Of a stretch of DNA of 64,000 bases, positions 4,615 to 23,986 are shown piece by piece. This DNA is from Haloprofundus halobius (lineage in GTDB: Archaea > Halobacteriota > Halobacteria > Halobacteriales > Haloferacaceae). The position numbers were made by a program, and so were the translations under genes. The stretch lies in the NCBI RefSeq assembly GCF_020097835.1, contig NZ_CP083667.1:248001-312000 (forward strand), written 5' to 3'. Within the stretch, counting starts at the first letter, position 1. Every line of letters starts with the position of its first letter. Under the pieces are notes generated by a model. That model worked only from the letters and a program-made list of their open reading frames with translations. It was not told the DNA's origin and made no database searches.

Positions 4615-5808
4615 ATGGCAAACACGATACATAACGGTGTGCACGCGATACAGCTACCTCGTGGTGCGGAGTTCAAACGCGGAACCGACAGCATTGTTAC
4701 CAACTACCGAATAGCTCCATCCGAGATGCTTCCCGACTGGAACAGCAGTCCGCGACTCTCGACCGAGTTCACCTATCGCGGACTCGACGCGATACTGCTG
4801 GAGAACGGCTACCTGCGCGTGCTCTTACTCCCCGAAAAAGGCGGTGACGTCGTCTCACTACGCGACAAACGGACCGACGTTGACGTTCTCTGGCACGCAC
4901 CCCACAACTGGAGCGCCCCGACGGCGCGCTATCTCCCTTCGGAGCCGAACTCGACGTGGAACGACCACTATCCGGGCGGGTGGCAGACGAACCTCCCGAA
5001 CGCCGGCGGTGGACACGAGATCGCCGGCAGCGCGTACGGGCTGCACGGTGAAAGCGCGTTACTTCCGTGGGATGCGTCGGTCGTTCGCGCGGACGACGAG
5101 GCGGTGACGGTCCGACTCGAAGTCGAACTCGTCCGCTACCCGTTCGCCGTCGAACGCGAGCTCACACTCCGCGCCAACGAGTCCCGACTCCGGATTGTCG
5201 AGCACGTAACAAACCATGGTGGAGTTGAACTCGACTACGTTTGGCAGCAACATCTCGCACTTGGACCGCCGCTTCTGTCTCCGGGTGCACGGTTGGACGT
5301 TCCGGCCCGCCGCGGCGTCGTCGAGGAGTACGGCGACGGCTATCCGAACCGTCGACTCCGGAGCGGTGCCGAGTTCGACTGGCCGACCGCGCCGGGCCAC
5401 GACGGAGGCGACATCGACCTCTCGACTGACGTACCCGGACAGGACGCCGAGATCCACGATTTGGCGTACGCCGTCGACCTGACCGAGGGGTGGTACGCGC
5501 TCACGAACCCCGAACTCGACCTCGGGTTCGCGCTTCGATTCCCGACCGACCCCTTCGAGTCGCTGTGGTACTGGCAACCGTTCGGCGGGTACGCCGAGTC
5601 GCCGTTCTGGAGTCGGACGTACAACGTCGGCCTGGAACCGACGACGGCGTACCCCGGCGACACGGAGGGCCAGCGCGCGTCGGGCACGATGAAGACGCTC
5701 GCCCCCGGCGAGACCGTCGAAGCCGAGTTCGTCGCCGCGACGTACGGCGGACTCTCTTCGGTGGAGTCGGTCTCCGCGGAGGGTGTGGTCGGCGGGACCG
5801 AGCGCTGA
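4615..5808 (+). CDS. Aldose 1-epimerase-like (galactose-mutarotase fold) protein
   Basis: A 397-residue beta-sandwich protein of the aldose 1-epimerase/DUF4432-like group, which interconverts sugar anomers or binds sugars in the cytoplasm. Seen are an N-terminal strand with TEFTYRGLDAILLENG, the LLLPEKGGDVVSLRDK segment typical of these folds, YGLHGESALLPW and VWQQHLALGPPLL, whose two His residues match the catalytic His positions of mutarotases, and a C-terminal LWYWQPFGGYAESPFW block. ATG 4615 follows an AT-rich promoter; an upstream ATG at 4603 lies inside that promoter. It precedes the SelA-like gene on the same strand with 74 bases between. Substrate is unknown. Confidence 0.75.
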   Translation: MANTIHNGVHAIQLPRGAEFKRGTDSIVTNYRIAPSEMLPDWNSSPRLSTEFTYRGLDAILLENGYLRVLLLPEKGGDVVSLRDKRTDVDVLWHAPHNWSAPTARYLPSEPNSTWNDHYPGGWQTNLPNAGGGHEIAGSAYGLHGESALLPWDASVVRADDEAVTVRLEVELVRYPFAVERELTLRANESRLRIVEHVTNHGGVELDYVWQQHLALGPPLLSPGARLDVPARRGVVEEYGDGYPNRRLRSGAEFDWPTAPGHDGGDIDLSTDVPGQDAEIHDLAYAVDLTEGWYALTNPELDLGFALRFPTDPFESLWYWQPFGGYAESPFWSRTYNVGLEPTTAYPGDTEGQRASGTMKTLAPGETVEAEFVAATYGGLSSVESVSAEGVVGGTER

Positions 5809-5882: not shown

Positions 5883-7094
5883 ATGGAGTACGAATCCACC
5901 ATCTACGACGAGTTGGGCGTGCCGAACGTCGTCAACGCGGCGGGCACGAAGACGCGCATCGGGGGGAGCCGAATCCGACCGGAAGCGGTCGAGGCGATGA
6001 GTCGGGCGGCGGAGGCGTTCGTCCGCCTCTCGGACCTGCAGGTGCGAGCGGGCGAACTCATCTCCGAAGTCACCGGCGCGGAGGCGGGGTACGTCGGCAG
6101 CGGCGCGGCCGCTTGCATGACGCTCGCCGCGGCGGCGGCCATCGCCGGCGACGACCTGGGGACGATGGCGAAACTCCCCGAAACGGACGATGTACCGAAC
6201 GAGATCGTGATGCCGCGAACGCACCGAAACGGCTACGACCACGCGTTCCGCGCGGCGGGCGCGCGAGTCGTCGACGTCGGCAACAACGACAACTACCTCG
6301 GCACCGGGTCGAACAGCACCGAACCGTGGGAGATCGCCGACGCCATCACCGAGGAGACGGTCGCCGTCGGCTACATGCAGAAAGTGTTCAGCACGCCGCC
6401 GCTGGAAGGCGTCGTCGAGGTGGCCCACGACCACGGCGTGCCGGTCATCGTCGACGCCGCCGCCGAGGTGCCGCCCCGGGAGAACCTCTCGGCGTTCGTC
6501 GAGGCGGGCGCGGACATGGTCGTCTTCAGCGGGGGAAAAGCCATCCGCGGCCCCCAGACTACAGGTATCCTCGCGGGCAAGCGCGAGTACGTCCGCTCGG
6601 CGGCGCTCCAACATCTCGACATGCACGTCGCCGAATCGGTGTGGGAACCGCCGGCGGAACTGTTCGACAAAGAAGAACTGGACGGGGTGCCTCGACAGGG
6701 AATCGGACGACCCCTGAAGGTCGGTAAGGAGGAACTCGTCGGCCTCATCGCGGCGCTGGAGGCGTTCGTCGACGAGGACCAAGCGGCGCTCTCCGCCGAG
6801 TGGAACGACCGACTCGACGTCGTCGACGACGGTCTCGAAGACCTTCCCGGCGTGACGACGACCCGAGAACCCGGCGGGAAACTGATGGTCGCCCCCGAAG
6901 TGTACGTCGAACTCGACCCCGAGACGGCCGCGCTCGACGCGGTGGCGCTCGTCGGCGCACTTCGGAAGGAGAACCCCCGCATCTTCGTCGGTTCGGACGA
7001 CCTCCTCGACGGCGGCTTCACGGTCAACCCGATGTGTCTCTCCGACGACGGGGCCGAGTACGTCGTCGAGCGGATTCGGGCGCACCTCGCGTAG
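5883..7094 (+). CDS. SelA-like PLP-dependent enzyme
   Basis: A 403-residue fold-type I PLP enzyme of the SelA/D-glucosaminate-6-phosphate ammonia-lyase-like group. It starts with DELGVPNVVNAAGT, has the cofactor loop GYVGSGAAACMTLA, an aspartate in VPVIVDAAAEVPP and the Schiff-base lysine in FSGGKAIRGPQ (about Lys219). Archaea with this type do not use it for selenocysteine; elimination or deamination of an amino or hydroxy acid is more likely. It faces a RidA gene tail to tail across 15 bases. RidA hydrolyses the enamine/imine intermediates that PLP eliminases release. Exact substrate not readable. Confidence 0.8.
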   Translation: MEYESTIYDELGVPNVVNAAGTKTRIGGSRIRPEAVEAMSRAAEAFVRLSDLQVRAGELISEVTGAEAGYVGSGAAACMTLAAAAAIAGDDLGTMAKLPETDDVPNEIVMPRTHRNGYDHAFRAAGARVVDVGNNDNYLGTGSNSTEPWEIADAITEETVAVGYMQKVFSTPPLEGVVEVAHDHGVPVIVDAAAEVPPRENLSAFVEAGADMVVFSGGKAIRGPQTTGILAGKREYVRSAALQHLDMHVAESVWEPPAELFDKEELDGVPRQGIGRPLKVGKEELVGLIAALEAFVDEDQAALSAEWNDRLDVVDDGLEDLPGVTTTREPGGKLMVAPEVYVELDPETAALDAVALVGALRKENPRIFVGSDDLLDGGFTVNPMCLSDDGAEYVVERIRAHLA

Positions 7095-7109: not shown

Positions 7110-7487
7110 TCACTCGACCGTCGCGACCACCTCGATTTCGACGCCGATGTCGATGGGGAGGGCGGCGACTTCGACGGCGCTGCGGGCGGGATACGGGTCG
7201 CTCATGTACTCGCCGTACACCTCGTTGACGGCGTCGTAGTTCGCCATGTCGGTGACGAACACCGTCGCTTTCACGACGCTGTCGAGCGAACTTCCGCCGG
7301 CTTCGAGGACGGCGGCGACGTTGTCGAGTGTCTGTGCGGTCTGTTCGCCGATGTCGTCGCTGACGACGTCGCCGGAGTCCGGGTCGACCGGACCCTGTCC
7401 GGAGACGAAAATGCGGTCGCCGTCTCGTATCGCCTGCGAGAACGGGCCGATGCTGGCCGGTGCTTCGTCCGTGTGTATCTCTTCCAT
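7110..7487 (-). CDS. ridA: RidA (YjgF/UK114) enamine/imine deaminase
   Basis: A 125-residue RidA-family protein, trimeric in known cases, that hydrolyses reactive 2-aminoacrylate-like imines to ketoacids. Typical elements are IGPFSQAIRDGDRIFVSGQGPVDP near the N-terminus, TAQTLDNVAAVLEAGGSSLDSVVKATVF, and YPARSAVEVAALP containing the substrate-binding Arg near residue 102. It is convergent with the SelA-like PLP enzyme gene, its plausible source of substrate. Confidence 0.93.
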   Translation of the reverse strand: MEEIHTDEAPASIGPFSQAIRDGDRIFVSGQGPVDPDSGDVVSDDIGEQTAQTLDNVAAVLEAGGSSLDSVVKATVFVTDMANYDAVNEVYGEYMSDPYPARSAVEVAALPIDIGVEIEVVATVE

Positions 7488-7600
7488 ACGCTGTCGGAGT
7501 GGTGCACCGCCGCGCTCTTAGTGGTTTCTCTCGAATCGCGAACGTGTCACATCCCGCGGGACTTAACACCTGTCTGCCCGAATCGGCGTTCGAACGGACC

Positions 7601-8221
7601 ATGGACCTCATGCGTCTCTTAGACGAGTTACGCGTACTGAGCCAGAACGGACTGCGGTACGCCGACAACCCCTACGACGAGGAACGGTACGAACGAATAC
7701 TCGAACTGGCATGTGAGTACTACGGAGAGGCGTTCGAACTACCGGCCGACGACGTCCGCGAGCGCTTCGAGGCCGAACTCGGTCACGTCACGCCCAAAGT
7801 CGGAGCGGAGGCCGCAGTGTTCGATTCGACGGGGCGCATCCTGTTGATGCGACGCGCCGACGACGGTACCTGGTGTCTCCCCTGTGGCTGGGTCGACCCG
7901 AACGAGTCACCCGCCGAAACCGCGGTCCGCGAAACGCACGAGGAGACGGGACTCGACGTCACCGTGGTCGAACTGGTCGACGTGTATCACTACGCCCCGA
8001 GCGACCGGTTCGGTCCACACGGCCGCATCGACGTGCTCTACCGTTGTGTGGTCGACGGGGGGACGCTCGAACTTTCGCACGAGGGAGAGGCACTCGACTA
8101 CCGAGAGATAGACGACGTCTCCGTCTGGCACAAAGCGCACGAGACGTACGCCCGAGACGCGCTCGACGCGTCCGCTGCGACGACGACCGAAACCGACGAA
8201 CCATCTCGGTCGAGTGGGTGA
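7601..8221 (+). CDS. NUDIX hydrolase with NUDIX N-terminal domain
   Basis: A 206-residue Mg-dependent nucleoside-diphosphate-linked hydrolase. An N-terminal helical domain (residues 1-60, NUDIX_N_2 type) precedes the catalytic domain. The NUDIX box runs GWVDPNESPAETAVRETHEE, with the REx2EE glutamates. The ADP-ribose pyrophosphatase-like subgroup often carries this N-terminal domain, but substrate cannot be fixed. ATG 7601 is preferred; ATG 7610 is the next option. An open frame upstream overlaps the ridA start region and is not needed. Confidence 0.9.
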   Translation: MDLMRLLDELRVLSQNGLRYADNPYDEERYERILELACEYYGEAFELPADDVRERFEAELGHVTPKVGAEAAVFDSTGRILLMRRADDGTWCLPCGWVDPNESPAETAVRETHEETGLDVTVVELVDVYHYAPSDRFGPHGRIDVLYRCVVDGGTLELSHEGEALDYREIDDVSVWHKAHETYARDALDASAATTTETDEPSRSSG

Positions 8222-8275: not shown

Positions 8276-9037
8276 ATGGCACGACCGGCGATTCAGCTAT
8301 ACACGCTCCGTGAGTTCGACGAACCGTTGACTGAGACGCTGCTTCGCGTCGGCGAGACGACGTACGAGGGTGTCGAGTTCGCCGGTCTCGGCGACGAGTC
8401 ACCCGACGCAATCGCCGACGCCCTCGACGACGCTGGTCTCGTGCCGGTGGGTGCGCACGTCGGTCTCGACGCGTTCGAATCCGACTACGCGGCGACCGTC
8501 GAACGCTACCGGACGCTCGGATGCGACCGAATTGTCGTCCCCAGTTACGGTGAGGGAGGGTTCGGCTCCGTCGCGTCGGCCATGGAGACGGCCGACGACC
8601 TGTCGTCGGTAGCGGACCGACTCGTCGCCGACGGCTTCGAAGCACACTATCACAACCACACGTACGAGTTCGCGGCGCTGGAAGCCAGTTCGAGATTCGA
8701 GACCGCGTACGATGCGTTCGCCGCGTACTCGGACGACCAGCTCGGTCTGGAGTTCGACGTCGGACTCGCACAGCACGGCGGCGTCGACCCCACGACGTAT
8801 CTCGACCGCTACGCCGACCGACTCTCGCTCATCCATCTCACCGACACGAACCCCGGCGACGACGACACGCTCCACGTCGATCTCGACGAGGGCGTCGTCG
8901 ACCTCAACGCGTGCGTCAGTACGGCCGCCGCCGCGGACGTAGACTGGGTGATTCACGAGAACGGACTGACGACCGATCCGGAGGCGACGCTGGAGTCGAG
9001 TTCCCGTCGACTCCAAGAACTTCTCGACGACAACTGA
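8276..9037 (+). CDS. Sugar phosphate isomerase/epimerase-like TIM barrel (IolE/YcjR-like)
   Basis: A 253-residue xylose-isomerase-like TIM barrel. It opens with QLYTLREFDEPL, contains EGVEFAGLGDE, the HYHNHTYEF strand and EFDVGLAQHGG and LIHLTDTN strands that provide metal-binding residues. The YHNHxxEF version is typical of IolE, YcjR and other enzymes acting on keto-inositols or 3-keto-sugars after a Gfo/Idh/MocA oxidation. It is followed by two Gfo/Idh/MocA genes. A paralogue with the same architecture lies at 60294-61025. Substrate unknown. Confidence 0.85.
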   Translation: MARPAIQLYTLREFDEPLTETLLRVGETTYEGVEFAGLGDESPDAIADALDDAGLVPVGAHVGLDAFESDYAATVERYRTLGCDRIVVPSYGEGGFGSVASAMETADDLSSVADRLVADGFEAHYHNHTYEFAALEASSRFETAYDAFAAYSDDQLGLEFDVGLAQHGGVDPTTYLDRYADRLSLIHLTDTNPGDDDTLHVDLDEGVVDLNACVSTAAAADVDWVIHENGLTTDPEATLESSSRRLQELLDDN

Positions 9038-9103
9038 ACGGGCGCCCCTCGGAACAACTCGGCGAACTGTGGACCGCCGCCGCGCGGAGTCGTCGGGTCA
9101 CAA

Positions 9104-9114
9104 TACTTATCATA
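9104..9114 (+). promoter_or_regulatory. TATA-like box for Gfo-like gene
   Basis: The tract tacttatcata is centred about 27 bases before the ATG at 9136, the spacing of a leaderless haloarchaeal promoter. It implies the Gfo pair can be transcribed separately from the TIM barrel gene. Confidence 0.45.
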
Positions 9115-9135
9115 CACGCTGTGGGACCTACGCCC

Positions 9136-10134
9136 ATGCAACGCATCGTCGCGGTCGGGTCCGAGACGGCGGTGCGAAAGCACGTCGAACGGTACCGGCG
9201 GTTCGACGATGCGACCGTCTGTGGCGTCGTCGACGCCGACCGTGAACCGTGCGTCGACGAGGGCGTTGGGTTCGACGATATCGACGTGCCGAGATACCAT
9301 TCCCTCTCGGAGGTCCTCCAAACCACCGACGGCGATGTCGACGGCGTCGATATCTGCGGACCGGGGGCGGCTTTCGTCGATGCGCTCGAAACTGCACTCG
9401 CTGTGAGTACCCCGGTTCGCTGTGACCCGCCAGTTGCCTTCGACGCGGAGACGTTCGACCGACTCGTCACCGCTTCGACCGAGAGCGAGGGGTGGATACT
9501 GTCGCACTCACCGCACCGCTTCTCGCGGATGTACGAACGGCTCCACTCGGCCGTCGAATCGGGCGGTATCGGACCGATAGGCGTCGCGCGAATCGAACGG
9601 GCCGCGCCGTTCGACGGTCCGGGATGGAACGTGTCGTACGACGGCGTCTCCGTCGTTGAAGGCCCCGTTCGTACGCTCTGCGCCGTTCTCGCGCACGACG
9701 TTGACGTGCTGGAGTGGACGTTCGGGCCCGTCGAACGAGTGTTCGTTCGAGCGCGGGCGGGCGGGCGGTACGACCACGCCCACGCCGTGTTCGCGTTTCG
9801 AGATGGGGGACGAGCGACCGTCGGTACCCGGTGGCACCGAGCAGAGACTCCGGCCCCACGCATCGGCGTGGAGTACAGCGGCAAACACGGCCGCCTCGAC
9901 TTCAGCGAGGACGACGCGTCGACTGCGCTCCGCGAGGGGTCGACGCCGCTGGCCGTCGACCCGCCGGAGGACGACTGCCGCGGGCGGGCGCTCCGGGCGT
10001 TCATCGATCGTCTCGGAGGGAGCGAGCGTCCGCCGACGGACGTCGCTCCGGTGACGTCTTCGCGGGTCGTCGTCGCTGCGCGCCGCTCCGCGGACGAGAA
10101 CCGCCCGGTCACGCTCGCGGAGGAGTCGCCGTGA
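9136..10134 (+). CDS. Divergent Gfo/Idh/MocA-like protein lacking the EKP motif
   Basis: A 332-residue protein with the overall Gfo/Idh/MocA layout: N-terminal Rossmann-like part, then a beta-sheet domain (HDVDVLEWTFGPVERV resembles the usual H-x-x-D-x-x-x-W region). The normally conserved CEKP, whose Lys is catalytic, reads CDPP here, and the N-terminal glycine loop is reduced to VAVGSETAV. Both losses suggest a non-catalytic or altered enzyme. Its last bases overlap the next gene by GTGA, implying translational coupling, so it may be a partner or regulator of that active oxidoreductase. Confidence 0.7.
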   Translation: MQRIVAVGSETAVRKHVERYRRFDDATVCGVVDADREPCVDEGVGFDDIDVPRYHSLSEVLQTTDGDVDGVDICGPGAAFVDALETALAVSTPVRCDPPVAFDAETFDRLVTASTESEGWILSHSPHRFSRMYERLHSAVESGGIGPIGVARIERAAPFDGPGWNVSYDGVSVVEGPVRTLCAVLAHDVDVLEWTFGPVERVFVRARAGGRYDHAHAVFAFRDGGRATVGTRWHRAETPAPRIGVEYSGKHGRLDFSEDDASTALREGSTPLAVDPPEDDCRGRALRAFIDRLGGSERPPTDVAPVTSSRVVVAARRSADENRPVTLAEESP

Positions 10135-11117
10135 CGGTCGACGTCGGCATCTGCTCGACCGCCCACGTCAACGCCGAGGTGTATGCGGCGCTGCTGTCGA
10201 AACTTCCGTCGGCCGACCTCGTCGGTATCTCGGGACGCAACGCCGAACGAACGCGGCGATACGCCAACTCGGTCGGTACCGCTGCGATGTCGCACGCTGA
10301 ACTGATGCGGGCGACCGACGGCGTCCTCGTTTGTTCGCCGACCGCCATCCACGGCGAGTTGATAGACCTCGCGCTGCAGCACGATGTCGCCATCCTCTGC
10401 GAAAAACCGCTGGCGACGTCGCTGACGGAGGCAAAATCGATTCGGGACCGCTGCGAGGAACAGGGTGCGGTCGCCAAGATGGCGATGCCGATACGGTACA
10501 GTCGCCCAATGCAGCGACTCAAGGAACGATACGAGTCGGGGGCCGTCGGCGACCTCCTCGCGGTGTCTGGGGTCAACCGCGGTCGGATGCCCGGTGGCTG
10601 GTTCGTCGACCCGAAACTCGCCGGCGGCGGCGCCGTCGCCGACCACACCGACCACATCGTCGATATCGTCCGCTGGATCACCGGCGAGGAAGTGACCGAG
10701 GTGTACGCCGAGACCGATACCCGGTTCTACGACATCCCGGTCGAAGACGTAAACGTGCTGTCGATGACGCTCTCGAACGGGGCGTCGTTCCTGCTCGACG
10801 GATCGTGGAGCACGCCGCAGAAGAACCCGTTCTGGGGCGACGCCGAGGTAGATCTCGTCGGGTCGGAGGCGACGCTGTCTGCGGACTGCTTCGGCTACCG
10901 ATACAGCCACGTCAGAGATATCGGCCACGATACGCACAACGAGTCCATCTACTGGGGTGCTGACCCGAACAACGCACTACTTCGAGCGTTCGTCGCGTCG
11001 ATACGGGGCGAGTCGACACTCGCGGCGTCGTTCGACGACGCCGTGCGGACCGCCGCCGTGATAGCCGCCGCCTACGAGTCCGTTGAGCGCGGCGAACCGG
11101 TTGATGTGACCTACTGA
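10131..11117 (+). CDS. Gfo/Idh/MocA-family NAD(P)-dependent sugar oxidoreductase
   Basis: A 328-residue oxidoreductase starting at GTG 10131, inside the stop of the preceding gene. The N-terminal NAD(P) domain contains VCSPTAIHGELI and the EKP motif LCEKPLATS. The C-terminal domain carries GGGAVADHTDHIVDIVRW with the His/Asp residues that act on the sugar, and FLLDGSWS. It oxidises or reduces a sugar, inositol or keto-sugar hydroxyl. Very similar to the convergent gene 11193-12206, so the two are duplicates that may differ in substrate. Neighbouring TIM barrel suggests a coupled oxidation/isomerisation. Confidence 0.88.
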   Translation: MTVDVGICSTAHVNAEVYAALLSKLPSADLVGISGRNAERTRRYANSVGTAAMSHAELMRATDGVLVCSPTAIHGELIDLALQHDVAILCEKPLATSLTEAKSIRDRCEEQGAVAKMAMPIRYSRPMQRLKERYESGAVGDLLAVSGVNRGRMPGGWFVDPKLAGGGAVADHTDHIVDIVRWITGEEVTEVYAETDTRFYDIPVEDVNVLSMTLSNGASFLLDGSWSTPQKNPFWGDAEVDLVGSEATLSADCFGYRYSHVRDIGHDTHNESIYWGADPNNALLRAFVASIRGESTLAASFDDAVRTAAVIAAAYESVERGEPVDVTY

Positions 11118-11192
11118 CCCGCGTTAGCTGTCGTGGGGACCGGTTTTCTGAATCGCGCATCGGCGTTCGATGCCGCTCTCCGTCCGGGACAC

Positions 11193-12206
11193 TCAGTTCG
11201 TCGCCGAGGTGATTTCGCTCGCCTCCACGTCGACGGATTCGGACGCGTTCGCGGATTCGTACGCGGCTTCAACGACAGCCACATCGTTGACGGCGTCCGC
11301 GCCCGTCTTCAGCGGTGGGCGGTCCTCGGCGACCGCCTCGACGAAGTCGGCGACGAGTCCCTCGTCGGGGTTCGACCCCCAAAACACCGACCGAATCCCG
11401 GGGTCGCCGGTGTCGCGCGTCTGCTTTATCTTCTGATCGAAGCAGTCGATGGAGACGACGCCCTCGGTGCCGACGAGTCGCAGCGTCGCGTCGCCCCAGA
11501 AATCCCACTCGTCGGGCTTACTCCACGAGCCGTCGAGGACGAACTCGGTCCCGTCGGTGAGCGTCATCGATAACAGGTTCACGTCCTCGACCGGAATGTC
11601 GTTGAACCGGGTCTCGGTCTCGGCGTACACCTCGCGAACATCTTCGCCCGTTATCCACCGGACGATGTCGACGATGTGTACCGAGTGGTCCATCACGGCA
11701 CCGCCGCCGGACTCGGCCTCGTCGACGAACCAGCTTCCGGGCATCTGCCCTCGGTTCGTCCCGCTGAGGAAGCAGATATCGCCGAGTACGCCGTTCTCGA
11801 CGGCCGTCTTCGCGTTCCGGGCCGGTTGGCTGAACCGAAGCGGCATCGCGACGCCGAGGTGAACGTCGGCACGGTGACAGAGGTCGACCATCTCGTGGGC
11901 CGCCTCGACGCTCGGCGCGAGCGGTTTCTCGCAGAGTACGTCGACGCCGGCGTGGGCGGCACGGCGGACCCACGCGAGGTGGTCGGCGTTCGTCGAACAG
12001 ACGACGACGCCATCCACCTCGGCGAGCAACGCGTCGGGGTCGAAGTAGTCGACACCGTACTCGTCGGCCTTCTCTCGACCCTCGGCGACTCGCTCTTCCG
12101 ACTCGGTGACGCCGACGAGTTCGGCGTCATCGAGGTTGTTCAGACAGGCAGCGTAGGAGTCAGCGTGCAGGTGAGCGACCGAACAGAGGCCGATGCGGAC
12201 CGTCAC
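11193..12206 (-). CDS. Gfo/Idh/MocA-family oxidoreductase (paralogue of preceding gene)
   Basis: A 337-residue oxidoreductase with GLCSVAHLHADSY at the N-terminus, LCEKPLAPS as the EKP motif, NRGQMPGSWFVDE and GGGAVMDHSVHIVDIVRW in the catalytic domain, and FVLDGSWS. The same blocks appear in 10131-11117, which it faces tail to tail across 75 bases, so the pair is an inverted duplication. Its start overlaps the stop of 12203-13201 by ATGA, placing it second in a leftward two-gene operon. Confidence 0.88.
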   Translation of the reverse strand: MTVRIGLCSVAHLHADSYAACLNNLDDAELVGVTESEERVAEGREKADEYGVDYFDPDALLAEVDGVVVCSTNADHLAWVRRAAHAGVDVLCEKPLAPSVEAAHEMVDLCHRADVHLGVAMPLRFSQPARNAKTAVENGVLGDICFLSGTNRGQMPGSWFVDEAESGGGAVMDHSVHIVDIVRWITGEDVREVYAETETRFNDIPVEDVNLLSMTLTDGTEFVLDGSWSKPDEWDFWGDATLRLVGTEGVVSIDCFDQKIKQTRDTGDPGIRSVFWGSNPDEGLVADFVEAVAEDRPPLKTGADAVNDVAVVEAAYESANASESVDVEASEITSATN

Positions 12207-13201
12207 GCCTCCACCTCCACGGGCGACACCGGCTCACCGCGCTCGCTGGACTCGACGGCCGCCAGCGCGACGCGAACTGCCTCGCGCGCGTCGGCCGGCG
12301 AGATCTCGGGGTCGTCGCCGTTCTCGACGCAGTCGAGGAAGTGTTCGAGTTCGACCGTGTACGGGCTCTTCGCCAGCGGACTCGCGGGCGCGTTCGCGCC
12401 TTCCACACCGCCGGAGACGCGGACGGCGTTCTCGTCGCGAGCGTCGAACTCCAACATCCCCTCGTCACCGGCGAGTTCGTAACTGGTAATGAACGGCGAC
12501 CCCTCCGGGTAGCCCCACGACGCCTCGACGTGGCCGACAGCACCGTTTTCGAAGCGCAGGACGACCGACGAGTGCTGGTTGAGGTGGCCATCGTCCCACT
12601 CGGCGGTTCGAGCGAACACTCGGTCGACCTCACCGGCGACCCAGCGCAGATAGTCGAAGTCGTGGATCGCCATGTCCAGCAAGACGCCACCGCTCTGCGC
12701 CTTGTCGCCGAACCAGGAGTTGGTGCCGTACCGCGGCGGCGACGAGAGTCGTTCGGTGTGCAATGTTCCCAGCGTCCCGATCTCGCCCGCGTCGATACGG
12801 CGTTTCGCCTCGGCGTACTCGGGGAAGTAGCGCAACACGTGCCCGGTCATGAACGTGATTCCGGCCTCTTCGACCCTCTCGACGATGGCGTCGGCGTCCT
12901 CGACGGTCCGCGCGAGGGGTTTCTCGCAGAAAGTGTCGAGGCCGCGGGCGGCGGCGGCCTCGACGAGCGGCCGGTGCGTCGGCGTCGGCGTACAGATGTC
13001 GACGACGCTTATCTCGGCGTCGTCCATCATCTCTTCGGCATCGTCGTACACTTCTGCCCCGGGCGCGTGCTCCGCCGCGAACTCCGTTCGGTTCTCACCG
13101 ATCGATGCGACCGCGACGACCTGCGCGCCAGCAATATTTTGGTAGCTGTTAGCATGAGTCGTGGCCATGAAACCACTCCCCACTAACCCAATTCGTTGCA
13201 T
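12203..13201 (-). CDS. Gfo/Idh/MocA-family oxidoreductase
   Basis: A 332-residue enzyme starting MQRIGLVGSGFMATTHANSY, a clean GxGxxG-type Rossmann loop. EKP motif is FCEKPLART, and the catalytic region contains GGVLLDMAIHDFDYLRW with the H-D pair. The ATG at 13201 fits the fold; an in-frame ATG nine bases upstream adds three residues. First gene of the leftward pair with 11193-12206 (ATGA overlap). It differs clearly from the duplicated pair and probably acts on another intermediate. Confidence 0.88.
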   Translation of the reverse strand: MQRIGLVGSGFMATTHANSYQNIAGAQVVAVASIGENRTEFAAEHAPGAEVYDDAEEMMDDAEISVVDICTPTPTHRPLVEAAAARGLDTFCEKPLARTVEDADAIVERVEEAGITFMTGHVLRYFPEYAEAKRRIDAGEIGTLGTLHTERLSSPPRYGTNSWFGDKAQSGGVLLDMAIHDFDYLRWVAGEVDRVFARTAEWDDGHLNQHSSVVLRFENGAVGHVEASWGYPEGSPFITSYELAGDEGMLEFDARDENAVRVSGGVEGANAPASPLAKSPYTVELEHFLDCVENGDDPEISPADAREAVRVALAAVESSERGEPVSPVEVEA

Positions 13202-13256
13202 CACCTCCAACGTGCGGAACTATAGTTATTAAAACTTCTGTAGCGGCAACTGCACC

Positions 13257-14534
13257 CTAGATGTTCGACCACGTGGTGTTCGTCTCGGAGGTGAAGCCCG
13301 CCCTGGCGAACCGGTCGCTCTCGTCGAACACCGATCGGATGACCGAGGGGTCTTCGAGCAGTCGGTGCCGGAGGAAGCTCCCGCGTCCGCGCCCGCCGCC
13401 AGTCCGCGTGATTTCGAGCACTTCGAGGAACTCCCACTCGCGCAGCAGGTCGTGGACTCGGCGCTTCGAGAGCGCGTCGAGACTGACCTCCGCGCAGATG
13501 TCCTCGTAGGCGGCGTACACTTCGGTGGTCTCGAACGTCCGCGTCTTCTCGACGAGCGCCAACGAGACAACTGCCAGCAGCGTCGCCTTCTGTTGGGTGG
13601 TCGCGCCCGCTAGCAGGGCCTCGACGCGGTCTCGTTCGGCGAGGTTGTCGGCACGCTGGACGTGGTCGACGGTGACCGCGTCGGCGTCGTCGAACGTGGC
13701 GAGTTCCCCAGCATGACGCAGTAGGTTGATGGCTTTCCGAGCGTCGCCGTGTTCTTCGGCGGCGAGAGAGGCGCACTCGGAGACCACGTCGTCGGAGAGC
13801 ACGTCGCCCTCGAAGGCGTCAGCGCGGCTTCGAATTATCTCGTGGAGTCCCCGACGGTCGTACGGGGTGAAGACGATTTCGCGCTCCTGGAGGCTGCTCT
13901 TGACCCGCTCTTCGAGTCGGTTTCGGTACTTTATCCTGTTGCTGATACCGACCACGCCGACGGAGCACCGATCGAGTTTCCCCGTCTCCGCCGCGCGCGA
14001 TAGCTGCATGAGCAGGTCGTCGCCCTCCAGGCGGTCTATCTCGTCGAGAACCACGAGCGCGACGTCGAACTGCGCGTCGAGCACCTGCCAGAGCAGGCGG
14101 TAGTAGCGCGAGCGACCGAGGCCGGTCTCCGGAACGGCGAAACCGGTCACGTCGGGGTCGTTCAGCGCTCGGACCGTCGCCCTGACCGCGCGCGTTTCGG
14201 TGTCCTCCTGCGAACAGTCGACGACGACGCGACCCACCGAGACGCCGTGTTCCACCGCGGCCTCGACGATTCGTGCCGTCGCGTACCGGGCGCAGAGCGA
14301 CTTTCCGGTGCCCGTCTTCCCGTATAGAAACACGTTGCTCGGCGCTTCACCCGTGACCGCGGGGTTTAGCGCTGTCGCGAGTCGACGGATCTCTTCGTTG
14401 CGAGCGACGATGTTCGCGGGACCGGGTACGTAGCCGACGTCGAGTCTCTCCTTCTGCGAGAAAATTCGGTCGCGAGCGCCGAACGCGTCGTCGAGGGCGC
14501 TCGCGTTCTCGACCGGTTCGTCGTGCCGTGTCAT
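13257..14534 (-). CDS. Orc1/Cdc6-family replication initiator
   Basis: A 425-residue AAA+ origin-binding ATPase. Walker A is YGKTGTGKS (residues 71-79), Walker B VVLDEIDRL, sensor 1 VVGISN, and the initiator-specific QEREIVFTPYDRRGL and DARKAINLLRHAGE blocks follow. A C-terminal winged helix (about 330-425) contains SKRRVHDLLREWEFLEV. ATG 14534 (MTRHDE) gives the usual N-terminus; a start 36 bases upstream is possible. An ORB-like sequence lies about 130 bases upstream. Haloarchaea carry many orc paralogues, often one per origin or replicon, so this may mark an origin or an acquired replicon. Confidence 0.93.
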   Translation of the reverse strand: MTRHDEPVENASALDDAFGARDRIFSQKERLDVGYVPGPANIVARNEEIRRLATALNPAVTGEAPSNVFLYGKTGTGKSLCARYATARIVEAAVEHGVSVGRVVVDCSQEDTETRAVRATVRALNDPDVTGFAVPETGLGRSRYYRLLWQVLDAQFDVALVVLDEIDRLEGDDLLMQLSRAAETGKLDRCSVGVVGISNRIKYRNRLEERVKSSLQEREIVFTPYDRRGLHEIIRSRADAFEGDVLSDDVVSECASLAAEEHGDARKAINLLRHAGELATFDDADAVTVDHVQRADNLAERDRVEALLAGATTQQKATLLAVVSLALVEKTRTFETTEVYAAYEDICAEVSLDALSKRRVHDLLREWEFLEVLEITRTGGGRGRGSFLRHRLLEDPSVIRSVFDESDRFARAGFTSETNTTWSNI

Positions 14535-14660
14535 ACCGTCCCAGTACCGCCACGTCGCTGATAAACGCATCGGCGGCGACGTCCGTCACCGAGTCCCCTC
14601 CCACGGGTTCGATACGGAACCGATGCGGTGCTGCGGGAACAGTTCGCGCGCTCGAACGAT

Positions 14661-14688
14661 ACCCCCTCCCCCCTCGTTTCACCTGTAT
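14661..14688. promoter_or_regulatory. ORB-like origin recognition box upstream of orc1/cdc6
   Basis: On the minus strand this reads ACAGGTGAAACGAGGGG followed by more G residues, resembling the archaeal origin recognition box layout: a TxCAxxGGAAAC-like core, then a G-string. It is a single copy; no clear inverted partner was found, though an AT-richer stretch and a short inverted repeat adjoin it. Consensus match is from memory. Confidence 0.4.
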
Positions 14689-14690
14689 CT

Positions 14691-14714
14691 CATTACATTC
14701 ATAGTCTCGTAATG
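14691..14714. repeat. Inverted repeat CATTAC-N12-GTAATG
   Basis: CATTAC (14691-14696) and GTAATG (14709-14714) form a perfect 6-base inverted repeat beside the ORB-like box, 160-180 bases before the orc1/cdc6 start. It could be an autoregulatory or origin-associated site. Confidence 0.35.
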
Positions 14715-14830
14715 GCATGTGAGAGAGTTACATTCACGAAAATTCACTCTGGTTTCGGTGACCCTCGTCAGCCCGATAACTCGCGAAGTGGTGACGAACG
14801 CCGAAATACGCCGTAGAAACGGTGGGGATC

Positions 14831-15529
14831 TCAGTTGAGGTACTCGTCTGCGCTCTTGTGGAGTGCGACAAACCCTTCGGCGAACTCCGCACCTCTGGTT
14901 CGACCGAGCACTCTCGCTTCGGCACGGACGCCCTCGACGAGTCCATCGAACTCGGCATCGATGCCGCCGTGTTCCTCCAACCACTCGACCTGCGACTCGT
15001 GTTCGAGGATCGCGTCCTCCTTCGTCGACTGGTGATCGCCGATGTCGACATACGTGTCGGGGGCGAACGAGGAGGTCGGCTTCCCGAAGTAGTAGACGTT
15101 CTGGGGTTCCCACGGATCGTACTCGGTCTCCAAGAGCGGGAGCGAACACATGTAGTACGCGTCGGTCACCAGCCTTGACGTCGCCTGGTGGTCGGGATGC
15201 ATGTCGTCACGGTAATGGGTGAGGACGATGTCCGGCCGGTGTTCGCGCAGTACGTCGACGAGTTGGAGTCGGTTCTCCATCGAGTAGCGTACCCGTCCGT
15301 CCTCGAAATCGAGGAACGTCGCCTCCGCACCGAGCGTCTCCGCGGCGGCTTCGGCCTCGCGTTCGCGCGTCGCGGCGACTTCAGCCTCGGTGGTGTCGAA
15401 CCCGCCGTACTCACCCCGAGTCATGTAGACGATGGTGACGTCGTCGCCCCGGGCGGCGTGCTTTGCGAGCGTCCCGCCGCAGAAGATGTCCGCGTCGTCG
15501 GGATGTGCAACTACTGCTGTGAGATGCAT
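14831..15529 (-). CDS. PIG-L/LmbE-family deacetylase
   Basis: A 232-residue zinc-dependent N-deacetylase acting on acetylated amino-sugar conjugates. Zinc and catalytic motifs are VVAHPDDADIFCGG at the N-terminus and HYRDDMHPDHQATSR near residue 110. The start at ATG 15529 places AHPDD at residues 8-12 as usual; an in-frame ATG 15 bases earlier is less likely. The nearest neighbour on the same strand is a TIM barrel sugar isomerase (15665-16468). This context suggests an N-acetylated or acylated sugar substrate. Confidence 0.9.
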   Translation of the reverse strand: MHLTAVVAHPDDADIFCGGTLAKHAARGDDVTIVYMTRGEYGGFDTTEAEVAATREREAEAAAETLGAEATFLDFEDGRVRYSMENRLQLVDVLREHRPDIVLTHYRDDMHPDHQATSRLVTDAYYMCSLPLLETEYDPWEPQNVYYFGKPTSSFAPDTYVDIGDHQSTKEDAILEHESQVEWLEEHGGIDAEFDGLVEGVRAEARVLGRTRGAEFAEGFVALHKSADEYLN

Positions 15530-15664
15530 ACACACATCAGTCATACAAGTTGGTATTAAGCGTTGTGCTGAACGCGATGTTCGACGCCCCGTCGGTGATC
15601 GACGCCGGAGACTCCGTCGAAGCGCCCTCTCGACCGTCGTCGACGGCCGAACACGACCGTCCGG

Positions 15665-16468
15665 CTACGAGAACAGATGTTCGAGGTCGGCACGGACGCG
15701 CGGCGGCATCCGCTCCGGTGCAGTCCGGTACGGCGGCACCTCCGCGGTTATCCACCCGTCGTAGCCGACTGCCGCGAGCGCCTCATCGACGGCCCGCCAG
15801 TCGACGTCACCCTCCAACGGGTACGTGAAGCCGTCTATCGTGTCTACGTCGGTCCGGTAGTCCTTCACGTGAACGCGTTCGATTCGGTCTCCGAGGATTC
15901 GAATCCACTGCTCGGGGCGGCCGAACCGCCTGACGTTGCCCACGTCGAAGTACGCGCCGACCGGTCCGTCCGTCGACGCCTCGTCGACGAACTCGGCGAA
16001 CTCCAGCGGCGAGAGCAGGAAGTCGTTCCAGACGTTCTCGACGCAGACGGTTACGTCGTAGTCGGCCCCGACCGAGGCGAGCGTTCGAACCGATTCCAGC
16101 GCCCGCTCGTACGCTTCGTCGTATCGTGTTCCCTCGTCGACGACGGCGGGGACGACGAGAACGGCACCGGCGTCGAACGCATCGGCGAGGGCGATCATCC
16201 GCTCGCCCGCTTCGATCCCCGCGACTCGCGTCTCCTCGTCCGCGCTCGACAGGTGTCGGTCCCAGTGTAACGTCGTCGAGATGGCCGGAACGTCGAGTCC
16301 GGACCCGTCGATTCGGTCGGCTAGTTCGTCGACCGCATCGTCGTTCCACAGCGGTCCGTCGGCTGTCAGATTCGGTTCGATTCCATCGTATCCGGCCTCC
16401 GAGAGCAACTCGACGTTGGCTTCGAGGCGTTGCTCGGGGAACCCCATCTGGTTGAGTGCGAACCTCAT
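15665..16468 (-). CDS. Sugar isomerase/epimerase TIM barrel (tagatose-3-epimerase-like)
   Basis: A 267-residue xylose-isomerase-like TIM barrel with a complete metal site: Glu in VCVENVW, Asp in AYFDVGNV, His in ERVHVKDY and Glu in ITAEVPPY. This E-D-H-E set is that of D-tagatose/L-ribulose 3-epimerases and related enzymes. Start ATG 16468 (MRFALNQMGF) matches family N-termini. Divergent from a Gfo/Idh/MocA gene over 88 bases that contain gatttatagg for this gene and tacctttaac for the other. Confidence 0.87.
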   Translation of the reverse strand: MRFALNQMGFPEQRLEANVELLSEAGYDGIEPNLTADGPLWNDDAVDELADRIDGSGLDVPAISTTLHWDRHLSSADEETRVAGIEAGERMIALADAFDAGAVLVVPAVVDEGTRYDEAYERALESVRTLASVGADYDVTVCVENVWNDFLLSPLEFAEFVDEASTDGPVGAYFDVGNVRRFGRPEQWIRILGDRIERVHVKDYRTDVDTIDGFTYPLEGDVDWRAVDEALAAVGYDGWITAEVPPYRTAPERMPPRVRADLEHLFS

Positions 16469-16556
16469 GCACACCAATTCCCGTCCGCGCCGATTTATAG
16501 GTTCGCGTGGTGGTCGGGCGGATACCTTTAACTCGAAGTGTGGGATAAGTGAGGCC

Positions 16557-17606
16557 ATGGCGTGTTCAGTCGGGTTCGTCGGTGCGGGAGGGATCGCCTC
16601 GGTTCACTTGGAGACGTTGGACGCCGCGTTGGACGGCGGACTGACCGATTACGACGGTGGGACTATCGACGTGGAACTGACCGCTGTCGCCGACGTCGAC
16701 GAGACGCGAGCGAGGGAGGCGGCCGTTCCACGCGACGCCGCGGCGTACACCGACGGCGTGGAACTCGTCGAGTCGGAGTCGATCGACGCGCTCGTCGTCG
16801 CCGTCCCGCCGTTCGCTCACGGTGCGTACGAACGAACCGCGGCCGAGTACGGTGTCGACCTTTTCGTCGAGAAGCCGGTCGACCTGACGGCCGACGCGGC
16901 GCGCGAAACGGCCCACCGCATCGCTGATTCGGACGTCCTCGCGCAGGTCGGCTACGTCTGTCGCTACGCGGGGATAACCGAACGCGCGCTGGAACTGCTC
17001 GACGGCCGCCGCATCGGTCACATCGACAGCACGTACTGGGTTCCGCTTCCCGACACGCCGTGGTGGTCCGAACGGGCGAGGTCCGGCGGCCAGATACTCG
17101 AACAGTCGACGCACGTCTACGACCTGCACCGGTACCTCGTAGGGGAAGTAACCGCTGTGACGGGGAGCGGAACCGACGGACTGCTCGTCGACAGCGTCGA
17201 CTTTCAGGACGCGACGTCGGTGACGCTCGAGCACACGTCGGGCGCCGTCTCGCACGTCTCGTCGACGTGCGGGTCGCCCGACTCCCGGTTCGAGGTCAGA
17301 ATCGCCGCCGAGGACGCGTTTCTCGAACTCGACTACTTTGGTCACAGTCTCTCAGGTGTCGTCGACGGCGAGAGCGTCCGATTCGAGGCCGACGGCGACT
17401 GGTACCGCCGCGAGTTCGAGTCGTTCCTTCGTGCGACAGCACACGGAGAGGAAGTTGGGAGGGTTGATGCGGTACGCGCCGACGTTCGCTCGACGTACGA
17501 CGACGCGGTAGAGACGCTGGAACTGACACTCGCGGCACGTGAGGCCGCCGAAACGGGCGAAAATGTGGCGCTCGACGGATCGGACCGTGGGGGCTGCAGT
17601 CGGTGA
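16557..17606 (+). CDS. Gfo/Idh/MocA-family oxidoreductase
   Basis: A 349-residue enzyme with GFVGAGGIASVHLETL as Rossmann loop, EKP motif LFVEKPVDL, and the catalytic segment ILEQSTHVYDLHRYLVGE. Start at ATG 16557. Divergently paired with the tagatose-3-epimerase-like gene, a layout seen for oxidation plus isomerisation modules. It ends 55 bases before the ATPase gene of the sugar ABC operon, whose own promoter lies between. Confidence 0.87.
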   Translation: MACSVGFVGAGGIASVHLETLDAALDGGLTDYDGGTIDVELTAVADVDETRAREAAVPRDAAAYTDGVELVESESIDALVVAVPPFAHGAYERTAAEYGVDLFVEKPVDLTADAARETAHRIADSDVLAQVGYVCRYAGITERALELLDGRRIGHIDSTYWVPLPDTPWWSERARSGGQILEQSTHVYDLHRYLVGEVTAVTGSGTDGLLVDSVDFQDATSVTLEHTSGAVSHVSSTCGSPDSRFEVRIAAEDAFLELDYFGHSLSGVVDGESVRFEADGDWYRREFESFLRATAHGEEVGRVDAVRADVRSTYDDAVETLELTLAAREAAETGENVALDGSDRGGCSR

Positions 17607-17661: not shown

Positions 17662-18798
17662 ATGGGTAAGCTAGACATCCGCAACCTCCGGAAAGTGTTC
17701 GCGGACGGAGACCAGTCGATCGTCGCGGTCGACGACTTGGACATCGACATCGACGACGGCGAGTTCCTCATCTTCGTCGGCCCCTCGGGCTGCGGGAAGT
17801 CGACGACGCTCCGTTGTATCGCCGGACTGGAGACGGTTACGGAGGGCGAGATACTGCTGAACGGCGACGATATCACGCACCAGCCGCCCACCGAACGCGA
17901 CATCGCGATGGTGTTCCAGAACTACGCGCTCTACCCCCACATGTCCGCTCGAAAGAACATCGGGTTCGGACTCAAGATGTCGACGGACATGTCGAAAACC
18001 GAGATCGAGCAGCGTGTGCAGGAGACGGCGGAGATGATGGGTATCGAGGAGTTGCTCGACAAGAAGCCGGGTGAGCTTTCCGGCGGCCAGCAACAGCGCG
18101 TCGCGCTGGGCCGCGCCATCGTCCGCGAACCCGAGGTGTTCCTGATGGACGAACCGCTCTCTAATCTAGACGCCAAGCTCCGGACGACGATGCGGACGGA
18201 GTTACAGAACCTCCAGCAGAACCTCGACATCACCACCATCTACGTCACGCACGACCAGACGGAGGCGATGACGATGGGCGACCGAATCGCCATCCTCGAC
18301 GGCGGCGAACTCCAACAGCTCGGCACGCCGCTGGAGTGTTACTACGAGCCCGCCAACCGATTCGTCGCCGGCTTCATCGGGTCGCCGTCGATGAACTTCT
18401 TCGAGGTGGAGTACAGAGACGGTACGCTCGTTCACGACGCGTTCCGGTACGATCTCTCGCAGGCGACGTGCGAGGAACTCACCGGATACGAAGGGGCGCT
18501 GACGCTGGGTATCCGGCCAGAGAGTATCGAAATCGTCGACGCGAGTGAGCCGAAATCGATTCAGGTGTCCGTCTCGGTGACGGAGCCGATGGGCGAGACG
18601 ACGTACGTCTACGTCGATATCGGCGACGAACGCTACACGGTGACGCTCGACGGCGAGCGGGTGGTCGAACCGGGTACGACGCTCGACATCGTCATCCCCG
18701 AGGAGAAGATGCACCTGTTCGACGCGGACACGGGCGAGACTATCAAATCGCGAAACGTCTCCACCGCCACGAACGTCGACGTCAACGCTCGCGCCTGA
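17662..18798 (+). CDS. Sugar ABC transporter ATP-binding protein (MalK/UgpC type)
   Basis: A 378-residue ATPase powering carbohydrate import at the inner membrane face. Walker A GPSGCGKST (about 40-48), Q-loop VFQNYALYPHM, signature LSGGQQQRVALGRA, Walker B VFLMDEPLSNLD and switch His in IYVTHDQTEAM. The last 130 residues form the MalK-type TOBE/regulatory domain. It leads a cluster with binding protein, two permeases and a small membrane protein, though the binding-protein gene has its own TATA box. A second MalK-type gene is at 44229-45359. Confidence 0.95.
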   Translation: MGKLDIRNLRKVFADGDQSIVAVDDLDIDIDDGEFLIFVGPSGCGKSTTLRCIAGLETVTEGEILLNGDDITHQPPTERDIAMVFQNYALYPHMSARKNIGFGLKMSTDMSKTEIEQRVQETAEMMGIEELLDKKPGELSGGQQQRVALGRAIVREPEVFLMDEPLSNLDAKLRTTMRTELQNLQQNLDITTIYVTHDQTEAMTMGDRIAILDGGELQQLGTPLECYYEPANRFVAGFIGSPSMNFFEVEYRDGTLVHDAFRYDLSQATCEELTGYEGALTLGIRPESIEIVDASEPKSIQVSVSVTEPMGETTYVYVDIGDERYTVTLDGERVVEPGTTLDIVIPEEKMHLFDADTGETIKSRNVSTATNVDVNARA

Positions 18799-18883
18799 AT
18801 ACGGTCGTCGTCCGCGGTGACGCGTTCGATTCGGTTCGGCCACTGGTGAGACTCGGTCGTGGTATGGTACAGCGCACCAAAGA

Positions 18884-18894
18884 TTTATTATATA
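18884..18894 (+). promoter_or_regulatory. TATA-like box for sugar-binding protein gene
   Basis: tttattatata lies 28-38 bases before the ATG at 18922, a strong archaeal TATA candidate. It implies extra transcription of the binding protein relative to the ATPase. Confidence 0.5.
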
Positions 18895-18921
18895 CCGTCT
18901 GTTTGTTCCTCTGAGGCTAGT

Positions 18922-20244
18922 ATGAGCAACAGAAATCTCACCCGGCGTAAGCTTCTCGCACTGACCGGTTCGATGGGCGCGGCGGGATTGGCTGGCTGTT
19001 CGAGCGGCGGTACCGGCGGCGGGAACGACAGCGGCGGCTCCGGTGACGGCAACGGTTCCGGTGGTGGTGGCGGCGGTGACGGCGGCAACGGCGATGGGTC
19101 GGCGACGTTCTGGGCGTGGAACGACCCCGGTCTCGCGCCGATTCGCGAGGACCAGGGCGAGGAGATCGCAGACCAGAGCGACGTGATCTCCGACGTCAGT
19201 TGGGAGTACTACCCCTTCGAGAACTACCTGGCGAAGGCGACGACGGCCATCCCGGCCGGCAACGCCCCCGACAGTCTGGCGCTGTCGGTGCTGTGGGTGC
19301 CGCGCTTCGCGGACCAGGGCGTCGCGTTGAACCTCGAAGAGAACGGGTTCGACCCCGACGACTACGTCGCGGCGGCGCGCCGCAACGCCAGCTTCGACGG
19401 GACGCTCTGGGCGGTGCCGTGGTACGCGGACTGCCGGCTCGTCGCCATCAACACGGCGATGTTCGAGGAGGCCGGACTGGAGATACCGGACCCCACTCAC
19501 CGTCCCAGTTGGGAGGAGTTCGGGTCGTGGATCGACGCGCTCGGCGAAGAGCACGGGAGCGCCTTCTCGATGTCGGCGGGCGAGGGGTTCGACTGCTTCG
19601 TGCTCTCGAACGGGGGCGGATACCTCAACGAGGACGGCACGGAGGCCATTATCAACAACGACGCCGCCATCGAGGCGGCGAACTACCTGCAGCCGAAGAT
19701 CGTCGAGGACGAGACGGTCATCGCACGCAACCCGGGCGGTACGGACGCCATCGAGGACGTCCTCGCCGGCGAGGCGGCGATGTGTTTCGCCGGGTCGTGG
19801 CACTACCCCCGTCTGCGCGACAGCGACCTCGACTGGCAGTACATGCCGTATCCGAGCGGCCCGCAGATAGACACGAGCCACACCTGGAGCGCGGGCGTCT
19901 TCTACACCATCCCGAGTCGCGGCGGCGCCGACCGGGAGATCGGCTTAGAGTGGCTGAACTACATCAACTCGAGTGAGGTCCAACAGGGCGTCACCGAGTC
20001 GATGGGCGGATTCCCCGGGCGTAAGGACGCCTACGAGACCGACGAGTTCACCCAGTTCATCGAGGACAACCCGAAACTGGAACCGGTCGCCCAGGAGATG
20101 GAGAACACGGTGCCGTTCCCCAGCCATCCCGAGGTGTCGAAGATGTGGGACAGCGTCCACACGCAGGCGCAGTCGATGTGGCAGGGTGAGGACCCGCAAC
20201 AGGCGCTCGACAAAGCGGCGCAGGACATCAACGCGCTCCTCTAA
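18922..20244 (+). CDS. Extracellular sugar-binding lipoprotein of ABC transporter
   Basis: A 440-residue cluster-1 solute-binding protein. The Tat signal has LTRRKLL at residues 5-11, and the lipobox LAGC puts the anchoring Cys near residue 26. A Gly/Ser/Asp-rich linker of about 35 residues follows, then the binding domain beginning near ATFWAWNDPG. Segments such as LWAVPWYADCRLVAIN and AAMCFAGSWHYP are typical of sugar-binding proteins. Start ATG 18922 follows the TATA box at 18884. Two bases separate its stop from the first permease. Ligand unknown; the downstream M81 and creatininase genes hint at an unusual sugar conjugate. Confidence 0.93.
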   Translation: MSNRNLTRRKLLALTGSMGAAGLAGCSSGGTGGGNDSGGSGDGNGSGGGGGGDGGNGDGSATFWAWNDPGLAPIREDQGEEIADQSDVISDVSWEYYPFENYLAKATTAIPAGNAPDSLALSVLWVPRFADQGVALNLEENGFDPDDYVAAARRNASFDGTLWAVPWYADCRLVAINTAMFEEAGLEIPDPTHRPSWEEFGSWIDALGEEHGSAFSMSAGEGFDCFVLSNGGGYLNEDGTEAIINNDAAIEAANYLQPKIVEDETVIARNPGGTDAIEDVLAGEAAMCFAGSWHYPRLRDSDLDWQYMPYPSGPQIDTSHTWSAGVFYTIPSRGGADREIGLEWLNYINSSEVQQGVTESMGGFPGRKDAYETDEFTQFIEDNPKLEPVAQEMENTVPFPSHPEVSKMWDSVHTQAQSMWQGEDPQQALDKAAQDINALL

Positions 20245-20246
20245 CA

Positions 20247-23896: not shown

Positions 23897-23986
23897 CGCC
23901 GCGCTAGGCGCACAGGACCCGAGACTCGTCACCGCCGTCGTCGTCGCCCCCGATGATTTTATCCGGGGTGTAGTCGATACGCCGGT

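Follow-up and report, generated by a model that had tools for sequence, protein, structure and literature searches.

Results

A Gfo/Idh/MocA array within a larger conserved cassette

The DNA analyzed here is a window of 64,000 nucleotides (contig C2, positions 248001-312000) from the five-contig, 3.95-Mb genome of the haloarchaeon Haloprofundus halobius. Within 9.3 kb of this window, five Gfo/Idh/MocA oxidoreductase genes (GfoA to GfoE) lie together with two TIM barrel genes (TIM1 and TIM2) and a PIG-L deacetylase gene, all at the positions given in a preliminary description of this DNA (Table 1). Gene identities were taken from Pfam, and equivalog assignments were judged by the curated cut-offs of NCBIfam. 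Gfo/Idh/MocA domains scored above the Pfam cut-off in all five Gfo genes, and AP_endonuc_2 is the Pfam domain of both TIM barrels. A full-length Orc1/Cdc6 gene (Orc1) between GfoD and PIG-L and a DgaE/SelA-like enzyme gene to the left of the array were absent from the preliminary description. The genome contains 27 Gfo domains, 17 of them on the 423-kb contig C2, and random placement would give approximately 0.06 Gfo genes per 9.3 kb compared with the five observed. Their clustering is not a chance adjacency, because the gene order is kept not only in congeners but also beyond the genus and the family.

The array is part of a cassette that covers approximately 4.6-28.4 kb of the window. On its left, the unit also includes DUF4432 and a DgaE/SelA-like pyridoxal phosphate (PLP) enzyme, followed by a variable NUDIX gene, TIM1, GfoA and GfoB; then come GfoC, GfoD, Orc1, PIG-L and TIM2, and finally GfoE and a right-hand extension that consists of an ATP-binding cassette (ABC) importer, M81, MR_MLE, a major facilitator superfamily (MFS) transporter and a glucose dehydrogenase (GDH). 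Among the cassette genes covered by the Pfam scans, none showed a glycoside hydrolase domain. Members of three families share this order almost unchanged, and most copies are located on megaplasmids. It is found in three congeners, in two Halogeometricum species (H. limi and H. pallidum), in Halegenticoccus tardaugens and Halegenticoccus soli, and in three Haladaptatus species, where it lies on named plasmids. One cassette is chromosomal, on the 3.9-Mb chromosome of genome G295. DUF4432 adjoins the DgaE/SelA-like gene in the congeners and in genome G028 and is close to it at loci L090 and L097; the NUDIX gene is present in the congeners and at some Haladaptatus loci, and some loci lack GfoE, M81 and MR_MLE. 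At one locus, from a metagenome-assembled genome (L039), TIM2, GfoC, GfoD, GfoE and the importer are present but PIG-L and Orc1 are missing.

TIM1 resembles 3-keto-glycoside eliminases

When a profile built from ten TIM1 orthologs was searched against solved structures, it matched AtOGE (8bvk), the 3-keto-O-glycoside beta-eliminase (OGE) of Agrobacterium tumefaciens, with 92 bits (E 3.6e-25), compared with 43 bits (E about 4e-10) for the next PDB relative. The best Foldseek matches of an AlphaFold2 model of TIM1 (predicted local distance difference test, pLDDT, 86) were 8tcd, 8bvk and 8tct, which are 3-keto-beta-glucopyranoside-1,2-lyases and AtOGE. By fold and by sequence, the closest solved proteins are thus OGE and 1,2-lyases. 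In AtOGE, E39, H66, H132, H134, E161, D163, H189 and E233 act as metal ligands, alternate metal ligands or the catalytic base (PMC10628242). All eight are matched in TIM1 by E34, H61, H126, H128, E159, D161, H187 and E228, which are invariant in the 10 orthologs. A further seven full-length TIM1-like proteins (35-50% identity), one of them encoded at 60105-61025 of the window, retain the same residues apart from a single Glu-to-Gln change. The alignment and the model therefore support the assignment of TIM1 as a putative 3-keto-O-glycoside beta-eliminase or 1,2-lyase. The preliminary description had proposed a keto-glycoside, inositol or anhydrosugar pathway; its keto-glycoside part gains support at the level of active-site residues, whereas the other two parts fail on their cut-offs, as discussed below.

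Co-occurrence was followed in 293 genomes of the order, whose kinship makes the statistics optimistic; TIM1 homologs (E 1e-20 or better) were found in 147 of them. The second AtOGE-type TIM barrel of the window (60105-61025), which has all eight active-site residues, is flanked by 2-hydroxyacid dehydrogenase and ThuA genes.

The Gfo set and TIM2

The lysine of the EKP motif and the Asp/His pair of catalytic Gfo enzymes are present in GfoB, GfoC and GfoD; GfoE, in which Glu replaces the Asp, was counted with them. In each of the four GfoA sequences examined, CDPP replaces CEKP (EKP to DPP) and the Asp position is taken by Ala or Ser. Therefore, at most four of the cassette Gfo enzymes could be active. 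GfoA is kept directly upstream of GfoB, and its stop overlaps the GfoB start; we infer that it is a non-catalytic partner of GfoB. GfoB and GfoC are paralogs with 48% identity, and the other Gfo proteins are distant. The GfoD stop overlaps the GfoC start, and the true start of GfoD is probably 13201, with an apparent TATA-like box of its own in the 46-nt gap after Orc1, so that co-transcription with Orc1 is not a given.

No cassette Gfo reached the cut-off of a curated NCBIfam equivalog model, those for IolG, LgdA, Gfo6 and BT_2158/2159 included. The highest cassette scores were 28 against a cut-off of 750 for the BT_2158 glycoside 3-dehydrogenase and 52 against 650 for the BT_2159 disaccharide 3-dehydrogenase, and an assignment to either was rejected.

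Further Gfo and TIM barrel genes to the right, which the preliminary description also listed, are present, but at least some of them have other functions. GfoF (40369-41481) is the known haloarchaeal D-xylose 1-dehydrogenase Gfo6 (604.6 bits, cut-off 350), and TIM3, whose nearest relatives are hydroxypyruvate/oxo-tetronate isomerases, belongs to a separate GH42/GH4 unit. A single pathway for all seven Gfo genes of the window was therefore rejected. The GfoF unit also holds GH42, a 2-keto-3-deoxy-6-phosphogluconate (KDPG)-type aldolase and an ABC importer.

TIM2 resembles ketose 3-epimerases and UlaE (model pLDDT 76). Its residues E174, D205, H230 and E273 (numbering of the 297-aa frame) are invariant across orthologs. 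The start positions of its orthologs, together with two divergent TATA-like boxes, favor 16468 over 16558 as the start of translation. In relation to the YcjS/YcjR system of Escherichia coli and the ketose 3-epimerases, TIM2 is an epimerase-type TIM barrel with a conserved Glu/Asp/His/Glu metal site; however, it falls below all curated equivalog cut-offs, and it may be a keto-sugar isomerase/epimerase or a hydratase. Haladaptatus chromosomes and a Halomarina plasmid (L041, L042 and L043) carry a second, shorter kind of cluster, in which a TIM2 homolog (52-53% identity) adjoins an ABC importer. On a Clostridia contig (L044, 7030-10709), a TIM2 homolog (40%) lies together with Gfo and PIG-L genes, which hints at a bacterial counterpart of the combination.

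PIG-L is genomically linked to a DgaE-like enzyme

PIG-L, for which the preliminary description gave no explanation, scores over the PF02585 cut-off and keeps the AHPDD and HPDH metal motifs without change in its orthologs (80-94% identity), which places it in the PIG-L/CE14 family. Its PDB matches are TT1542, BshB-type and diacetylchitobiose deacetylases. An assignment as the bacillithiol deacetylase BshB1 was rejected, with a TIGR04001 score of 161.8 just below the cut-off of 182.5. The closest solved relative of the DgaE/SelA-like enzyme is a D-glucosaminate-6-phosphate ammonia lyase (7lc0); its orthologs are 67-94% identical, and K219 is the PLP lysine by motif. It may thus be an aminosugar-acid (glucosaminate) ammonia lyase.

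The SelA-like gene is present in 77 and PIG-L in 75 of the 293 genomes, and 69 have both (hypergeometric 2e-50, uncorrected for kinship). PIG-L lies within 5 kb of 51 of the 86 SelA loci, compared with about 0.3% by chance, and GDH and MR_MLE genes recur beside these loci. PIG-L and the DgaE-like enzyme are a linked gene pair across the haloarchaea, and the travelling of a deacetylase with such a putative ammonia lyase points to an amino sugar.

An Orc1 paralog with a single origin recognition box

Orc1 has intact Walker A (GKTGTGKS) and Walker B (VLDEID) motifs. Its clade comprises proteins of 72-100% identity, with the nearest Orc1 outside it at about 50%. Of the 293 genomes, 12 have a member, and these are the same 12 that have a cassette-type TIM1 (64% or more); the two genes always lie 4.9-6.5 kb apart. 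The origin recognition box (ORB) upstream of Orc1 is unique in the genome and is conserved as one copy at 11 of 11 loci, beside a 60-bp stretch of 35% GC. A haloarchaeal origin needs inverted ORBs to function (PMC3528665, PMC3936714), and an origin with one ORB per flank has been termed deficient (PMC3528665). No conserved second ORB was found at the 11 loci, either with up to three mismatches or with a relaxed pattern; an active orc/cdc6 origin would have at least two inverted ORBs around an AT-rich element, and an active origin at Orc1 was therefore rejected. The single-ORB origin beside cdc6D of Haloarcula hispanica (PMC3528665) is comparable in that its ORB adjoins an Orc/Cdc6 gene but lacks the inverted partner that a working origin has; the Orc1-ORB pair described here, in contrast, accompanies one and the same catabolic cassette in different families.

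A conserved palindrome with the pattern TTAC-N5-TA-N4-TGTAA lies beside the ORB. Of its eight genomic copies, C2 carries seven, including a second one in the window at 63268-63291, and C5 the eighth; the main contig C1 has none. In relatives, the sites are intergenic and mostly on secondary contigs. An origin iteron is disfavored, since the palindrome recurs between genes and in this genome only on secondary contigs; it is more likely a candidate operator of a regulator.

Table 1. Features of the cassette in the window
Feature	Position	Strand	Evidence or remark
DUF4432, aldose-1-epimerase-like (mutarotase superfamily)	4603..5808	+	PF14486, E 5e-26
DgaE/SelA-like PLP enzyme	5883..7094	+	Best PDB relative 7lc0, E 2.5e-44
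NUDIX hydrolase	7460..8221	+	PF00293, E 5e-21
TIM1, putative 3-keto-O-glycoside beta-eliminase (OGE/1,2-lyase) type	8276..9037	+	8bvk match, Foldseek, AtOGE residues
GfoA, Gfo family without catalytic Lys or Asp	9136..10134	+	Pfam, alignment
GfoB, Gfo dehydrogenase with K, D, H	10131..11117	+	Pfam, alignment
GfoC, Gfo dehydrogenase with K, D, H	11193..12206	-	Pfam, alignment
GfoD, Gfo dehydrogenase with K, D, H	12203..13210	-	Pfam; best PDB matches 8w9s, 3ezy
Orc1/Cdc6 paralog	13257..14570	-	TIGR02928, 390 bits, E 8e-117
Single ORB-like element with halophile G-string, ACAGGTGAAACGAGGGGGGAGGGGG	14662..14686	-	Conserved upstream of Orc1
Palindrome CATTACGAGACTATGAATGTAATG, candidate operator	14691..14714		Beside the ORB
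PIG-L/LmbE (CE14-type) N-deacetylase	14831..15544	-	PF02585, E 1.6e-36
TIM2, ketose-3-epimerase/isomerase-type TIM barrel	15665..16468	-	Suggested start 16468, not 16558
GfoE, Gfo dehydrogenase (K, E, H; Lys kept, Asp to Glu)	16557..17606	+	Pfam; absent at some loci
CUT1-type sugar ABC importer (MalK, substrate-binding protein, two permeases)	17662..22056	+	Pfam, synteny
M81/MlrC-like protein and MR_MLE sugar-acid dehydratase-like enzyme, accessory	22421..25159	+	Not at all loci
MFS transporter and Zn glucose-1-dehydrogenase-type enzyme	26049..28364	-	PF12832; PF16912, E 1.5e-93; syntenic

Outside these units, a 647-aa open frame at 56585-58528 has a strong coding composition and no Pfam match.

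Discussion

Overall, we propose a putative function for the cassette, which we hold with about even confidence: the uptake and the oxidative, non-hydrolytic breakdown of an amino-sugar-containing glycoside, coupled to deacetylation and to an aminosugar-acid ammonia lyase. What the sequences show directly is which genes are present and in what conserved order, the eight matched positions of TIM1, the missing catalytic Lys and Asp of GfoA, and the genomic linkage of PIG-L to the DgaE-like gene; the substrate, the C3 position, the order of the steps and each reaction are predicted from them. The ABC importer would take up the glycoside, and PIG-L would strip its N-acetyl group. GfoB, GfoC and GfoD (and GfoE) would convert a sugar hydroxyl, most likely at C3, to a ketone. 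TIM1, using a metal and His128 as the base, would then release the aglycone by elimination across C1-C2, in the manner of AtOGE. TIM2 may hydrate or isomerize the keto-sugar product, which a Gfo enzyme would then reduce back. GDH would oxidize the freed amino sugar at C1 to an aminosugar acid such as glucosaminate, from which the DgaE-like PLP enzyme would remove ammonia, yielding 2-keto-3-deoxygluconate (KDG) for the haloarchaeal Entner-Doudoroff route.

Several observations weigh against this proposal. The identity between TIM1 and AtOGE is only about 24%, and C3 oxidation is assumed, because the Gfo genes fall in no characterized clade. The DgaE-like enzyme missed both curated DgaE models (TIGR01437, 212.6 against 385.3; NF047797, 205 against 600), and the known DgaE enzyme acts on a phosphorylated substrate. 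Of the 12 genomes with the cassette, 4 do not have the SelA-like gene next to it. Additionally, the keto and the amino-sugar modules can be separate, since locus L039 has TIM2, Gfo genes and the importer without PIG-L or Orc1.

In an alternative reading, the 3-keto-glycoside route would serve glycosides that contain no amino sugar, for example glucosides of plants or algae, and PIG-L, the DgaE-like enzyme and GDH would form a neighboring, separate N-acetylglucosamine (GlcNAc) module. Glucosides are the substrates of AtOGE and of the bacterial lyases (PMC10628242), L039 carries a version of the TIM2, GfoC, GfoD, GfoE and importer genes that does without PIG-L, and most genomes with SelA-PIG-L pairs lack the Gfo/TIM array. 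However, every one of the 12 sampled genomes with the cassette has PIG-L beside Orc1 and inside the array, and PIG-L is among the most conserved array genes. We therefore consider this reading rather unlikely, though it is the best placed of the alternatives.

It is less probable still that the conserved unit is a mobile replicon origin, made up of Orc1 and its ORB, with catabolic cargo on both sides, whose order would reflect hitch-hiking with the origin and not a pathway. The conserved ORB with its G-string and the mostly megaplasmid location of the cassette would suit such an origin. Nevertheless, there is a single ORB where inverted ORBs are needed (PMC3528665, PMC3936714), the cassette is also found on the chromosome of G295, and about ten flanking genes keep their order across families. 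An inositol, levoglucosan or other cyclitol/anhydrosugar pathway, to which the mix of Gfo and TIM barrel genes and a weak NCBIfam similarity to IolG and IolE might point, is very improbable and was rejected, since the cut-offs are widely missed (IolG at most 205 against 355; IolE 36 against 290, with neither TIM barrel reaching IolE or IolO; LgdA, NF052479, at most 114 against 650) and TIM1 is far closer to OGE and the 1,2-lyases than to IolE in sequence, with IolE also ranking lower in fold.

The proposed amino-sugar glycoside route shares parts with known systems. The AtOGE operon of A. tumefaciens (8bvk; PMC10628242) has, in addition to the OGE-type TIM barrel with its eight matching residues, a second TIM barrel and oxidoreductases close by, as in the haloarchaeal cassette. 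However, A. tumefaciens oxidizes its substrate via the flavoenzyme GlycDH, whereas the cassette encodes Gfo enzymes alone for this purpose, of which four could be active; its PIG-L, DgaE-like and Orc1 genes and its archaeal host also set it apart. The 1,2-lyases of Alistipes (AL1, 8tcd) and Bacteroides thetaiotaomicron (BT1, 8tct) are among the best fold matches of TIM1 but are about 20% identical to it, and the BT_2158/2159 dehydrogenase models are not reached by any Gfo of the window. In Natrarchaeobius, chitinase clusters with a CE14 deacetylase, GDH, a DgaE-like enzyme, a dehydratase and an ABC importer were independently predicted in 2025 to encode a route from GlcNAc to glucosaminate (PMC12343721), which supports the amino-sugar part of our proposal. 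The cassette has the corresponding PIG-L/CE14, GDH, DgaE-like, MR_MLE and ABC genes. In contrast to those clusters, which have chitinases and mostly GH3/GH20, it showed no glycoside hydrolase domain in the genes scanned and has the Gfo/TIM keto-elimination set and Orc1.

The enzyme types are known; what is new is their combination, the host domain and the unexplained Orc1 passenger, which is the most surprising part of the cassette. Orc1 may mark an origin that is now a relic or dormant, or it may be a regulator. We speculate, at low probability, that Orc1 and its single ORB were domesticated as a dedicated part, such as a local transcriptional regulator, of an oxidative beta-elimination cluster for amino-sugar glycosides, a route not known for archaea. 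The strict pairing of the Orc1 clade with the cassette makes the recruitment of an archaeal replication initiator for another task testable.

To our knowledge, non-hydrolytic glycoside cleavage through 3-keto sugars is established only in bacteria, and a literature search of open papers found no earlier description of an archaeal route. If the proposed function is correct, 3-keto glycoside cleavage would extend to a second domain, with TIM1-like proteins in about half of the haloarchaeal genomes sampled, and the pairing of a deacetylase with an ammonia lyase would provide a hydrolase-free haloarchaeal route into amino-sugar glycosides.

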